Source: Bacteroidota bacterium
Lineage (GTDB): Bacteria; Bacteroidota; Bacteroidia; Bacteroidales; B39-G9
DNA: 16,574 nucleotides
Direction of reading: 5' to 3'
Assembly: GCA_003648455.1 (NCBI GenBank)
Contig: QMPG01000037.1
Span: 1-16,574 of the forward strand
Every line of letters starts with the position of its first letter. Position 1 is the first letter of the stretch. The position numbers and the translations under genes are program-made. A model generated the notes under the pieces. It did no database searches and was not told the DNA's origin. It saw only the letters and a list, made by a program, of their open reading frames with translations. Shown here in pieces: positions 13,504-15,894 of this stretch.

Positions 13504-13605
13504 AATTAATTATTTGTAAATTATGTAATACATGTTTAATTTTAGACGAATTCGAATTAATAGAAGTTACAGAAAATAAACGAAAGAAAAAAGAACTCTC
13601 AATTG

Positions 13606-13613
13606 CAAATATA
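13606..13613 (-). promoter_or_regulatory. Possible -7 box for the M1 peptidase gene
   Basis: TATATTTG on the minus strand fits TAnnTTTG and would give a leader of about 95 nt. No TTTG is seen 18-19 nt upstream, so the call is weak. Confidence 0.35.
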
Positions 13614-13619
13614 AAAAAT

Positions 13620-13937
13620 CAAACTTTCGTTAGTCGGTGAGCTACTATTTTAAATTTAACCCGAAAAATTCATAATTTTTCTACGCTTAAGAATTACCAA
13701 CAATTTTTTTTTTAAAACCCCAAATTTGGGTACTTCTAATGTGGGGTTTACTTGCGTGAGCTCACCGCCAGTTGGCGGTTCGGTTCCCGCTTTACTTTCC
13801 ACTATCCATCGCTAATTCATGCAATTCACTTCGTTTTTGTATGAATAAAGCAGGTTAAAGCGGGTTAATTCACTCCGAAAAGCCACTAAGATACTATAAA
13901 TTGACAACTTTAGTTTCCGGAGTAGTCTCATATGTGA
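13620..13937. repeat. Palindrome-rich gene-free region
   Basis: The 13504-13986 gap holds no credible ORF but many inverted repeats. GGTGAGCT (13636-13643) is inverted at 13759-13766. GAAAAATT/AATTTTTC (13663-13681) has loop CAT. AAACCCCA/TGGGGTTT (13715-13722/13742-13749) encloses CCCAAATTTGGG. GTGAGCTCAC lies at 13756-13765. ACCGCC/GGCGGT (13764-13779) has loop AGTT. CCCGCTTTA/TAAAGCGGG (13786-13794/13856-13864) encloses ATTCATGCAA/TTGTATGAAT (13815-13824/13837-13846). ACTCCG/CGGAGT lies at 13872-13877/13918-13923. It is locally richer in GC than its flanks. It may be a set of decayed palindromic mobile repeats or a structured RNA; no family is recognised. Confidence 0.6.
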
Positions 13938-13986
13938 ATATATAATTTTTTTTTTGATTTTTACGGTTTATCGAAGTGTAGTCATT

Positions 13987-14685
13987 TTATATAATAAAAA
14001 TTATTAAATAATAGACTCCCACCCCAATGAAAATAATTGAGACTATACGCCTAAACCAAATTTCAAAGATTGTTACTTTGTTAAAAACTACACCAACACC
14101 ACGAATAGTATAAGAAATAATCCAAGCAAAAATGATTACAGGTAATCCAGTGCCAATAGCAAAGATTATTGGCAAATAAAGCCCTGAAGCACTTGTTATT
14201 GTCATTGGTATTAACATTCCAAAATATAACACAGCACTATATGGACAAAAAGCTAAAGCAAAAACAATTCCTAAAAGCAGAACACCCCAAAAGCCTGATT
14301 GACTTTTCTGTTCCATTTTTTCTTTAAGTTTTCCAAAACCTGGCAACTTAATTTTAATGAAATCTAACATTAATAATCCAATAAGTATTAATAATGGTCC
14401 TAAAAAAATTTCACCCCATTTTTGAATAAACCCTGAAATTTGAAATTGACTTATTCCAAAATAAAATATCAAACCTATTGTTGTATAAGTTACAGCTCGT
14501 CCAAGAGTATAAATAAGTCCATTAAAAAAAACTCTTCTTTTATTATTAATGTCTTTCCCTAAAAATGCAATTGCGGTTATGTTTGTAGCAAGCGGGCAAG
14601 GGCTTATTGCTGTCATCAGCCCAAGAATAAAGGCATACAACAATGGCAATTGAGTGTTTTCTAATAACGATTGTAGAAACTCCAT
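13987..14685 (-). CDS. arsG: ArsG-family / CcdA-like membrane protein
   Basis: 232 residues with six predicted membrane helices in two halves, each half opening with a Cys-Pro element: SPCPLATN (Cys30) and FCPYSAVLY (Cys147). That is the paired-cysteine layout of CcdA/DsbD thiol conduits. Relatives beside arsF are named ArsG, a reported efflux permease for trivalent aromatic amino-arsenicals in the arsEFG operon of Shewanella putrefaciens. So it could export arsenicals, carry electrons across the membrane, or both. Its ATG overlaps the arsF stop (TAATG), so translation is coupled. It is the last gene of the arsEFG-like unit and reads into the palindrome-rich region. Confidence 0.78.
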   Translation of the reverse strand: MEFLQSLLENTQLPLLYAFILGLMTAISPCPLATNITAIAFLGKDINNKRRVFFNGLIYTLGRAVTYTTIGLIFYFGISQFQISGFIQKWGEIFLGPLLILIGLLMLDFIKIKLPGFGKLKEKMEQKSQSGFWGVLLLGIVFALAFCPYSAVLYFGMLIPMTITSASGLYLPIIFAIGTGLPVIIFAWIISYTIRGVGVVFNKVTIFEIWFRRIVSIIFIGVGVYYLIIFII

Positions 14686-15119
14686 TATTTTAAATTAAGC
14701 ATTTTGTCAACAGTTTCTTTAATTTTAACTTTTAGTTTGTCCGGCGTTGTTGTTGCATACAAAAATGCATCATTTGTTAAATCTATTCTTTGGTCGTTAT
14801 GTATAAAAATTAATGTTTGCCACTTAACGTTCATTTTATTTGCTAAATCTTCTCCGTTTTTTTCTTCCATATCAACAGATTGAAAAGTAATTTTTCCTGA
14901 ATTCACTTTGGCAGGATAAATATCAATTAAATCATTTCTCGTTTGTTCTTCCACGGCAAGACAAGTTGAACATCTGTGTTTATAATGAAAATAATATACC
15001 TCAACTTTATTTACATTGTTGGAACTGTCTTTAATAATATTAGAACTTTTGCTATTATTACTTGAAAAACCATTAAAAACAAATAATAACAATACTAACA
15101 AATTAATTATTTTTTTCAT
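14685..15119 (-). CDS. arsF: ArsF-family exported thioredoxin-like protein
   Basis: 144 residues. A Sec signal peptide (about 1-20, no lipobox) and a Ser/Asn-rich linker lead to a thioredoxin-like core at about 38-140 with VYYFHYKHRCSTC, the CxxC being Cys50-Cys53. The usual cis-proline position is not evident (KWQTLIF at 99-105). The family is annotated as the ArsF subunit of a nitrophenyl-arsenical nitroreductase in arsEFG operons. The export signal puts the CxxC outside the cytoplasm, able to take electrons from the ArsG cysteines. It starts 11 nt after the arsE stop and overlaps the arsG start by 1 nt. Confidence 0.78.
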   Translation of the reverse strand: MKKIINLLVLLLFVFNGFSSNNSKSSNIIKDSSNNVNKVEVYYFHYKHRCSTCLAVEEQTRNDLIDIYPAKVNSGKITFQSVDMEEKNGEDLANKMNVKWQTLIFIHNDQRIDLTNDAFLYATTTPDKLKVKIKETVDKMLNLK

Positions 15120-15130
15120 TTTTTTTAAAT

Positions 15131-15367
15131 TTAATAAGCTAATAAAATCTTTTTTATTTCTTTTGCAGAAGGCACACGTCCCTTTACCACTACTTTTTCG
15201 TTAATTACAAGAGCCGGAATTGAAATTACACCATAATTCATTATATCCATAATATCTTCAATTTTTGAAATATTTGCGACTATACCATTTTCAGAAATCA
15301 CTTCTCTTGTAAGCTTTTCAAGCACATTACAATTTGCACATCCTGTGCCAAGAATTTTTATGTCCAT
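15131..15367 (-). CDS. arsE: ArsE-like small thioredoxin (glutaredoxin-like)
   Basis: 78 residues with no signal peptide, so cytoplasmic. It has a compact thioredoxin fold with GTGCANC (Cys10, Cys13) after the first strand and SIPALVI with the cis-proline at residue 51, as in the small archaeal/bacterial redox proteins of the MTH895/TM0996 type. The frame is open 13 codons further up to an ATG at 15404-15406. However, that extension is encoded by the operator palindrome GTTCGT-N6-ACGAAC, so the ATG at 15365-15367 (MDIKILGTG) is taken as the true start. First gene of arsE-arsF-arsG. Proposed partner: ArsF in nitro-group reduction, or ArsG as electron acceptor. Confidence 0.82.
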   Translation of the reverse strand: MDIKILGTGCANCNVLEKLTREVISENGIVANISKIEDIMDIMNYGVISIPALVINEKVVVKGRVPSAKEIKKILLAY

Positions 15368-15386
15368 TTTTATTTTTTTATTATCA

Positions 15387-15404
15387 GTTCGTAAAAAAAC
15401 GAAC
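15387..15404. promoter_or_regulatory. ArsR operator O1, upstream of arsE
   Basis: GTTCGT-AAAAAA-ACGAAC is a perfect 6-6-6 palindrome ending 20 nt before the chosen arsE ATG. It has the same arms as O2 and O3. Binding here should block arsEFG transcription. Confidence 0.78.
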
Positions 15405-15460
15405 ATTATATTTCTTATCCAAATTTTTATGTAAAAAAATTAAAAAAAGATAGAATACTT

Positions 15461-15490
15461 TTTGTGAATAAAAAATTGTTCGTACATTTG
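15461..15490 (+). promoter_or_regulatory. Bacteroidota-type promoter of arsR
   Basis: TTTG (15461-15464), 18 nt, then TACATTTG (15483-15490), an exact TAnnTTTG. The -7 box fills the 8-nt centre of operator O2, so repressor binding would cover it. The predicted leader before the arsR ATG is roughly 10-15 nt. Confidence 0.78.
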
Positions 15491-15501
15491 CGAACAATTT
15501 T
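15472..15501. promoter_or_regulatory. ArsR operator O2, over the arsR promoter
   Basis: AAAATTGTTCG (15472-15482) and CGAACAATTTT (15491-15501) form a perfect 11-bp inverted repeat around TACATTTG. It shares GTTCGT and CGAAC with O1 and O3, and its position implies autorepression of arsR. Confidence 0.82.
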
Positions 15502-15507
15502 AAAATA

Positions 15508-15810
15508 ATGACGATGACTAAAAAAATAATAACAGACGAACAAAGAAAAATTGCACGTTATGCTAAAGCCATGGGACACCCTATTCGTATGTATTTATTA
15601 CAATTGCTTTCAAAACAAGCGTGTTGTTACAGTCGCGATTTATCTGAAGAGTTGCCAATTGCAAAATCTACACTTTCGCAACATTTAAAAGAATTGAAAA
15701 ATGCAGGACTTATACAAGGCGAAATTGAAGCTCCAAAAATTAGATATTGTCTTAATTTAAAAAACTGGGAAGAAGCCCAATTTTTATTTAAAAAATTCTT
15801 AGGAATATAA
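15508..15810 (+). CDS. arsR: ArsR/SmtB family metalloregulatory repressor
   Basis: A 100-residue winged-helix dimeric repressor that leaves DNA on binding a thiophilic metalloid or metal. It opens with ARYAKAMGHPIRMYLLQLL (about 16-34), has a recognition helix at PIAKSTLSQHLKELKNAGLI (50-69) and a wing at about 70-82. Possible inducer ligands are the adjacent Cys39-Cys40 (QACCYSRDL, in the same helix as the ELCVCDL site of classical ArsR) and Cys81 (RYCLNL). A Cys pair plus one more suits As(III) or Sb(III). The ATG at 15508 is used; a second ATG two codons on (15514) is possible. It is divergent from arsEFG and likely regulates itself, arsEFG and the following gene. Confidence 0.92.
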   Translation: MTMTKKIITDEQRKIARYAKAMGHPIRMYLLQLLSKQACCYSRDLSEELPIAKSTLSQHLKELKNAGLIQGEIEAPKIRYCLNLKNWEEAQFLFKKFLGI

Positions 15811-15827
15811 AAAAATTTACAATAATG

Positions 15828-15845
15828 GTTCGTGTTTTTACGAAT
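15828..15845. promoter_or_regulatory. ArsR operator O3, upstream of the nifX-like gene
   Basis: GTTCGT-GTTTTT-ACGAAT matches the O1 arms at 11 of 12 positions. It lies in the 84-bp gap between arsR and the nifX-like gene, 49 nt before the latter's ATG, implying a separate or attenuated ArsR-controlled start. A third ACGAA half-site follows at 15847-15851. No clean TAnnTTTG is seen nearby. Confidence 0.7.
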
Positions 15846-15894
15846 TACGAAATAGAATTTAATTTAATCATTAATAATAATAAAATTAGAAGTT

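Follow-up and report, generated by a model that had tools for sequence, protein, structure and literature searches.

Matching palindromes upstream of arsE, arsR and a nifX-like gene suggest a shared ArsR regulon in a Bacteroidota bacterium

Does a single ArsR repressor control arsEFG, its own gene and a nifX-like gene in Bacteroidota? The question is raised by positions 1 to 16,574 of contig QMPG01000037.1 (assembly GCA_003648455.1; Bacteroidales), a stretch of 16,574 nucleotides (nt) that we call the window, in which three copies of the palindrome GTTCGT-N6-ACGAAC lie within 460 bp, before arsE, arsR and the nifX-like gene. An earlier note on this DNA had joined the three sites into one regulon. 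Our analysis suggests that all three palindromes are probably bound by the resident ArsR, which would repress arsEFG, arsR and the nifX-like gene until an inducer releases it; a trivalent arsenical is the likeliest one. An ArsR dimer occupying the three palindromes would keep all of these genes off.

Three palindromes in one ars locus

The palindromes, with mismatches counted against GTTCGT-N6-ACGAAC, are:

15387-15404, minus strand: operator 1, preceding arsE; perfect match, 0 mismatches
15472..15501, plus strand: operator 2, spanning the arsR promoter; 11-bp arms and 8-bp spacer, core 15478-15495 with 1 mismatch
15828-15845, plus strand: operator 3, in the arsR-nifX gap; 1 mismatch

All three sites reported in the earlier note are thus real, as is the longer repeat that it saw at the second one, whose 11-bp arms (15472-15482 and 15491-15501) pair without a mismatch around the spacer TACATTTG; its start for that site, 15477, lay one base early and is corrected here to 15478. 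Its judgment that the sites are hard to explain by chance was borne out by shuffling. At up to one mismatch the three sites compare with 0.0097 expected per whole window (3000 shuffles), and at up to two mismatches with 0.27, at least three sites occurring in 0 of 200 shuffled windows. When the gaps were shuffled separately, a site arose in 3 of 20,000 versions of gap 15367-15507 and in 5 of 20,000 versions of gap 15811-15894.

The genes at these sites are:

13987..14685, minus strand: arsG, organoarsenical efflux permease family (NF040495, 316.4 bits, cut-off 200)
14685..15119, minus strand: arsF family (NF040494, 97.6 bits, cut-off 60)
15131..15367, minus strand: arsE, MTH895/ArsE thioredoxin-like (TIGR00412, 108.9 bits, cut-off 62)
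15508..15810, plus strand: ArsR/SmtB-family repressor, with K53/S57 helix PIAKSTLSQHL and conserved C39, C40 and C81
15895..16317, plus strand: nifX-like gene, with PF02579 domain (56 bits) and a His-rich insert

The NCBIfam cut-offs for ArsE, ArsF and ArsG are all exceeded. The nifX-like product stays below the NCBIfam NifX level (TIGR02663, 21.3 bits against a cut-off of 112), leaving the PF02579 domain alone supported. The program-made list of open reading frames (ORFs) starts arsE at the ATG at 15406, which places operator 1 within the gene; we adopted the start at 15367, because arsE of relatives begins after the operator and the gene then reads MDIKIL. Between arsG and a 996-aa ORF with an HExxH-like motif (by eye), positions 13504-13986 form a long stretch without a listed gene.

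Conservation and promoter register of the operators

The window ArsR has very many relatives: all 8000 of 8000 scored candidates were significant, and the named ones among the best 120 are from Bacteroidota. The protein was aligned with 34 of these best 120, and the best 80 of 533 confirmed ArsR-relative loci were taken for analysis, as a best-match sample and not a census. The window's TyrRS found a match in 26 of 29 genomes, with a best identity of 72%, none of the 29 being a close relative.

Conservation before orthologous genes was the test that the earlier note had set itself, and for arsR it was passed: within the search zone (130 nt upstream of arsR plus 10 nt) the palindrome occurs at up to one mismatch in 72 of the 80 loci. 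None of nine other spacings (2-5 and 7-11) gave such a match in any locus; spacings 9 and 10 match at two mismatches in 23 and 54 of the 80. All 72 sites share the bases G1 T2 T3 C4 G5 and C14 G15 A16 A17, under a selection that permits one mismatch only, and C18 (93%), base 6 (72%) and base 13 (82%) are less constant. Before arsE the conservation is partial, with a site in 38 of 72 arsR-arsE gaps at up to two mismatches and in 23 at up to one. An ArsP_1 permease gene lies less than 700 nt behind arsG in 59 of 66 loci (PF03773 for two representatives), and 42 of these 59 arsG-permease gaps hold a site at up to one mismatch.

These data bear on the view that chance, or some general property of promoters in AT-rich Bacteroidota DNA, accounts for the palindromes, with no relation to the window ArsR. 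Across 12 whole relative genomes, 1-mismatch matches do occur at control level (108, ars sites included, against 125 in the backward-read control), so that the evidence lies in clustering and conservation and not in the motif by itself. We consider this view very improbable in light of the conservation before arsR, the specificity of the spacing and the co-variation, described below, of operator letters with the recognition helix. A whole-genome pattern scan was dropped as proof of a regulon because of the control-level 1-mismatch sites.

The position of the operators relative to the promoter was analyzed in a wider set of 214 unique ArsR genes, window included (231 matches less 17 repeats; no shared 90-nt upstream). 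Scored as XXXCG-N8-CGXXX, an operator lies upstream of 172 of the 214, against 8 of 214 in backward-read upstreams. The motif TAnnTTTG, which we take to be the Bacteroidota -7 box, begins at +5 in 70 of the 172 operators, where it exactly fills the 8-bp spacer, and at -7 in another 56, where the G of the box is operator base 1; thus 126 operators show one of two registers and none shows both, while any other offset occurs at most six times. The arsR operator of the window is of the +5 type, CG-TACATTTG-CG within the perfect 11-bp inverted repeat:

15483..15490, plus strand: TACATTTG, of TAnnTTTG form, exactly filling the spacer of operator 2

Since most of the operators are locked to the register of this box, occlusion of polymerase is the simplest mechanism, which points to ArsR acting at them as a repressor. 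In the arsR promoter the two arms stand on either side of the -7 box, where bound ArsR would exclude RNA polymerase.

Operators inside the ars loci have another anatomy. Among 143 sites (up to one mismatch, 80 loci), 61 have the box in register without an A-tract (here A4+T3 with its end 5-14 nt upstream of the operator), 50 have the tract without the box, 1 has both and 31 have neither. In 43 of 52 cases tract and operator are 9 or 10 nt apart. Of 110 gaps with an operator (promoter-type included), 46 have A4+T3 within 40 nt of the stop codon, against 20 of 295 gaps without one. At the 42 arsG-permease sites TAnnTTTG was found in neither register (0/42), and only one box occurs anywhere from -40 to +60; these internal sites are thus not promoter-type. 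The tract, AAAAAATTT, stands mostly 9-10 nt before internal operators (loci L001-L080, in arsR-arsE and arsG-permease gaps; 15809-15818 in the window) and is near-exclusive with the TAnnTTTG class. A repressor bound within a transcription unit is familiar from LacI-type roadblocks (PMC10310618, PMC4132739), in the passages of those papers that treat them. By analogy, internal ArsR sites may likewise stop elongating polymerase, or else may serve a promoter of unrecognized type; the A-tract register is a feature of the ArsR sites of which those same LacI passages (PMC10310618, PMC4132739) give no description.

Recognition helix and operator letters

The outer bases of the operator vary together with ArsR residues 53 and 57. 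Among ArsRs with K53/S57, as in the window (n = 147, 30 without an operator), GTT stands on at least one half in 115 of 117 operators and TTT in the other 2. All 19 operators of the Q53 proteins (n = 24, 5 without) read NAT, and those of R53/S57 proteins (n = 26, 6 without) comprise 13 TTT, 5 TGT-type, 1 GTT/TTT and 1 other. R53/N57 proteins (n = 14) have TGA on at least one half in 14 of 14. The leftover three are an L53 protein (TTT), one whose residue is unreadable (TAT) and an unaligned one without an operator. Residue 57 goes with operator base 3: N57 with A in 14 of 14, whereas 154 of 158 operators of S57 proteins have T there in each half. R53/N57 paralogues in L002, L023, L070 and L079 have two TGACG-type operators upstream, 28-29 nt apart.

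On a quick tree of 211 of the 214 genes, with the helix columns left out, residue 53 changed 8 times and the operator class 11 times. Independent pairs number 1 on starred branches and 2-3 overall, too few for statistics to tell the match between helix and operator apart from common descent.

The nifX-like gene and the third operator

Relatives of the nifX-like gene were sought in 393 genomes of the order, where 21 had a match and 12 close places in 11 genomes reached 55-66% identity, and in 395 genomes of the phylum, which added 3 at 43-52%, for 15 loci in total; a further 80 genomes around G144 gave 4 matches, none additional. GTTCG precedes 0 of these 15 genes (one, L092, has 18 nt of upstream DNA only). 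By this conservation test the one-regulon reading of the earlier note is supported at arsR and in part at arsE, and its literal motif fails at nifX; the core of that reading is well supported.

A sister operator, NATCG-N8-CGATN, is found instead before 5 of the 15, once in L083 and twice each in L085, L087, L090 and L093, and the other 10 (L092 among them) have neither form. The five genomes all encode a Q53 ArsR, whose group reads NAT; four have it directly upstream and the fifth (G172) on another contig. Q53-type ArsRs also occur in G295 (L126) and G374 (L125), where no NATCG operator precedes the nifX genes. ArsR control of nifX-like genes thus recurs and is not universal. For the nifX-like gene of the window, regulation by ArsR is plausible and indeed likely. 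Bound at the internal site before it, ArsR would block either a local promoter or an elongating polymerase.

Downstream of the nifX-like gene, four of the five NATCG loci have one gene for a DGC-domain protein, with a NATCG site to itself, and one for an SBF/ACR3-like transporter; the fifth contig ends at nifX. The transporters fall below the ACR3 cut-off, and an OsmC-like gene lies in between in L240. The Q53-type loci L240-L243 carry nifX-like, DGC-domain and SBF/ACR3-like genes, with NATCG before nifX and DGC. By eye, no A-tract in a matching register was seen in the Q53-type nifX loci.

The third operator raises the question of how the site came to stand before nifX. From the arsR stop codon TAA onward it consists of an A7T3 tract, 9 nt, the operator and an extra half-site:

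15809..15818, plus strand: A7T3 tract, its end 9 nt ahead of operator 3, a placement shared with internal operators of relatives
15846..15851, plus strand: extra half-site TACGAA, directly behind operator 3, a feature also of the arsR-arsE internal sites in relatives

Because it shares this anatomy with the arsR-arsE internal operators, site 3 was probably inherited and may not have been recruited for nifX. In the usual order, arsR-arsE-arsF-arsG, all 75 arsE, 68 arsF and 66 arsG matches in the 80 loci are co-directional with arsR and none is divergent, whereas in the window arsEFG diverges from arsR and the nifX-like gene lies behind it, an unusual arrangement. Site 3 may accordingly be an arsR-arsE internal operator behind which nifX came to lie through inversion of arsEFG or insertion of nifX, in which case control of nifX would be incidental or exerted via read-through from arsR. 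We regard this as a real possibility, little short of even. The lack of any nifX match in the analyzed flanks of the 80 ArsR-relative loci agrees with it; the NATCG operators matching a same-genome Q53 ArsR at 5 of 15 relatives, four of them directly downstream of it, speak against it, since they show the pairing of ArsR and nifX to recur.

That the resident ArsR governs all three sites has further points to answer, beyond the missing GTTCG and nifX flank matches, the control-level motif counts and the few independent pairs, all of which weigh against it. The arsR site is missing in 8 of the 80 loci (L023, L026, L035, L036, L050, L063, L065 and L075), though in seven of these another part of the locus holds a copy at up to two mismatches; L026 holds none. 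No operator was found upstream of 42 of the 214 ArsR genes, and 46 of the 172 operators have TAnnTTTG in neither register. Window sites 1 and 3 also lack the box in register; site 1 belongs to neither operator class, its A5T3 tract ending ~17 nt upstream.

Taken more widely, the comparisons allow a tentative scheme for Bacteroidota ars loci, which we hold to be possible and short of probable. The scaffold XXXCG-N8-CGXXX would bracket or abut the -7 box, its outer bases being read by residues 53 and 57 (K, GTT; R, TTT or TGT; Q, NAT; R with N57, TGA); internal operators with an A-tract 9-10 nt upstream would halt polymerase; and nifX-like genes would be ArsR targets that switch letters with the ArsR type. 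In titles and abstract openings of open-licence PMC articles, no Bacteroidota ArsR operator, helix code or ArsR-nifX link was found.

The window ArsR fits its family in sequence and in fold: it exceeds the helix-turn-helix (HTH) models PF01022 (45.7, cut-off 22) and NF033788 (57.6, cut-off 55), and its structural model has the winged-helix fold of the ArsR/SmtB family. The best structural matches are 6j05 and 6j0e, As(III)-responsive repressors of this family that we take to be AfArsR and CgArsR; the window protein resembles them in fold, in size and in the position of arsR beside ars genes. The R773 ArsR binds its ligand through a CxC motif. No CxC occurs in the window ArsR sequence, which instead has C39 and C40 ahead of the first HTH helix and a third conserved cysteine, C81, in the second wing strand, and so differs from the R773 type. 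Among the 214 ArsRs, C40 is retained in 214, C81 in 207 and C39 in 151. A trivalent arsenical, as the most likely inducer, would be held by C40/C81 (with C39) and thereby release ArsR from the DNA.

The same operators could serve another inducer, namely reactive sulfur species or some other thiophile or redox signal acting at C40/C81. The weaker retention of C39, the presence of SqrR and BigR among the fold neighbours, the thioredoxin- and DsbD-like partners in the window and the OsmC-like gene in a Q53 locus would fit such a signal, which we nonetheless think unlikely. In favor of the main reading, Acr3-, ArsC- and ArsM-like genes were found by tblastn in 16, 23 and 12 of the 80 loci, and in the family check of representatives Acr3 and ArsM exceed a cut-off and the ArsC-like one falls below. 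Chen, Zhang and Rosen reportedly linked arsEFG to roxarsone and nitarsone in 2019; the window resembles that system in having all three genes, whose predicted role would be to reduce nitroaromatic arsenicals and export them. An ars operon of Bacteroides vulgatus ATCC 8482 is likewise said to have been described by Li, Mandal and Rosen in 2016, and its likeness to the window lies in the presence of ars genes in a Bacteroidota species.

From a guess about a single window has thus grown a testable rule of protein-DNA recognition for a widespread ArsR group. With the place of the operator relative to the promoter shown, ars regulons comprising arsEFG, ArsP_1, Acr3 and nifX-like genes become readable from raw sequence, and the nifX-like gene gains a likely place in arsenic-type stress.
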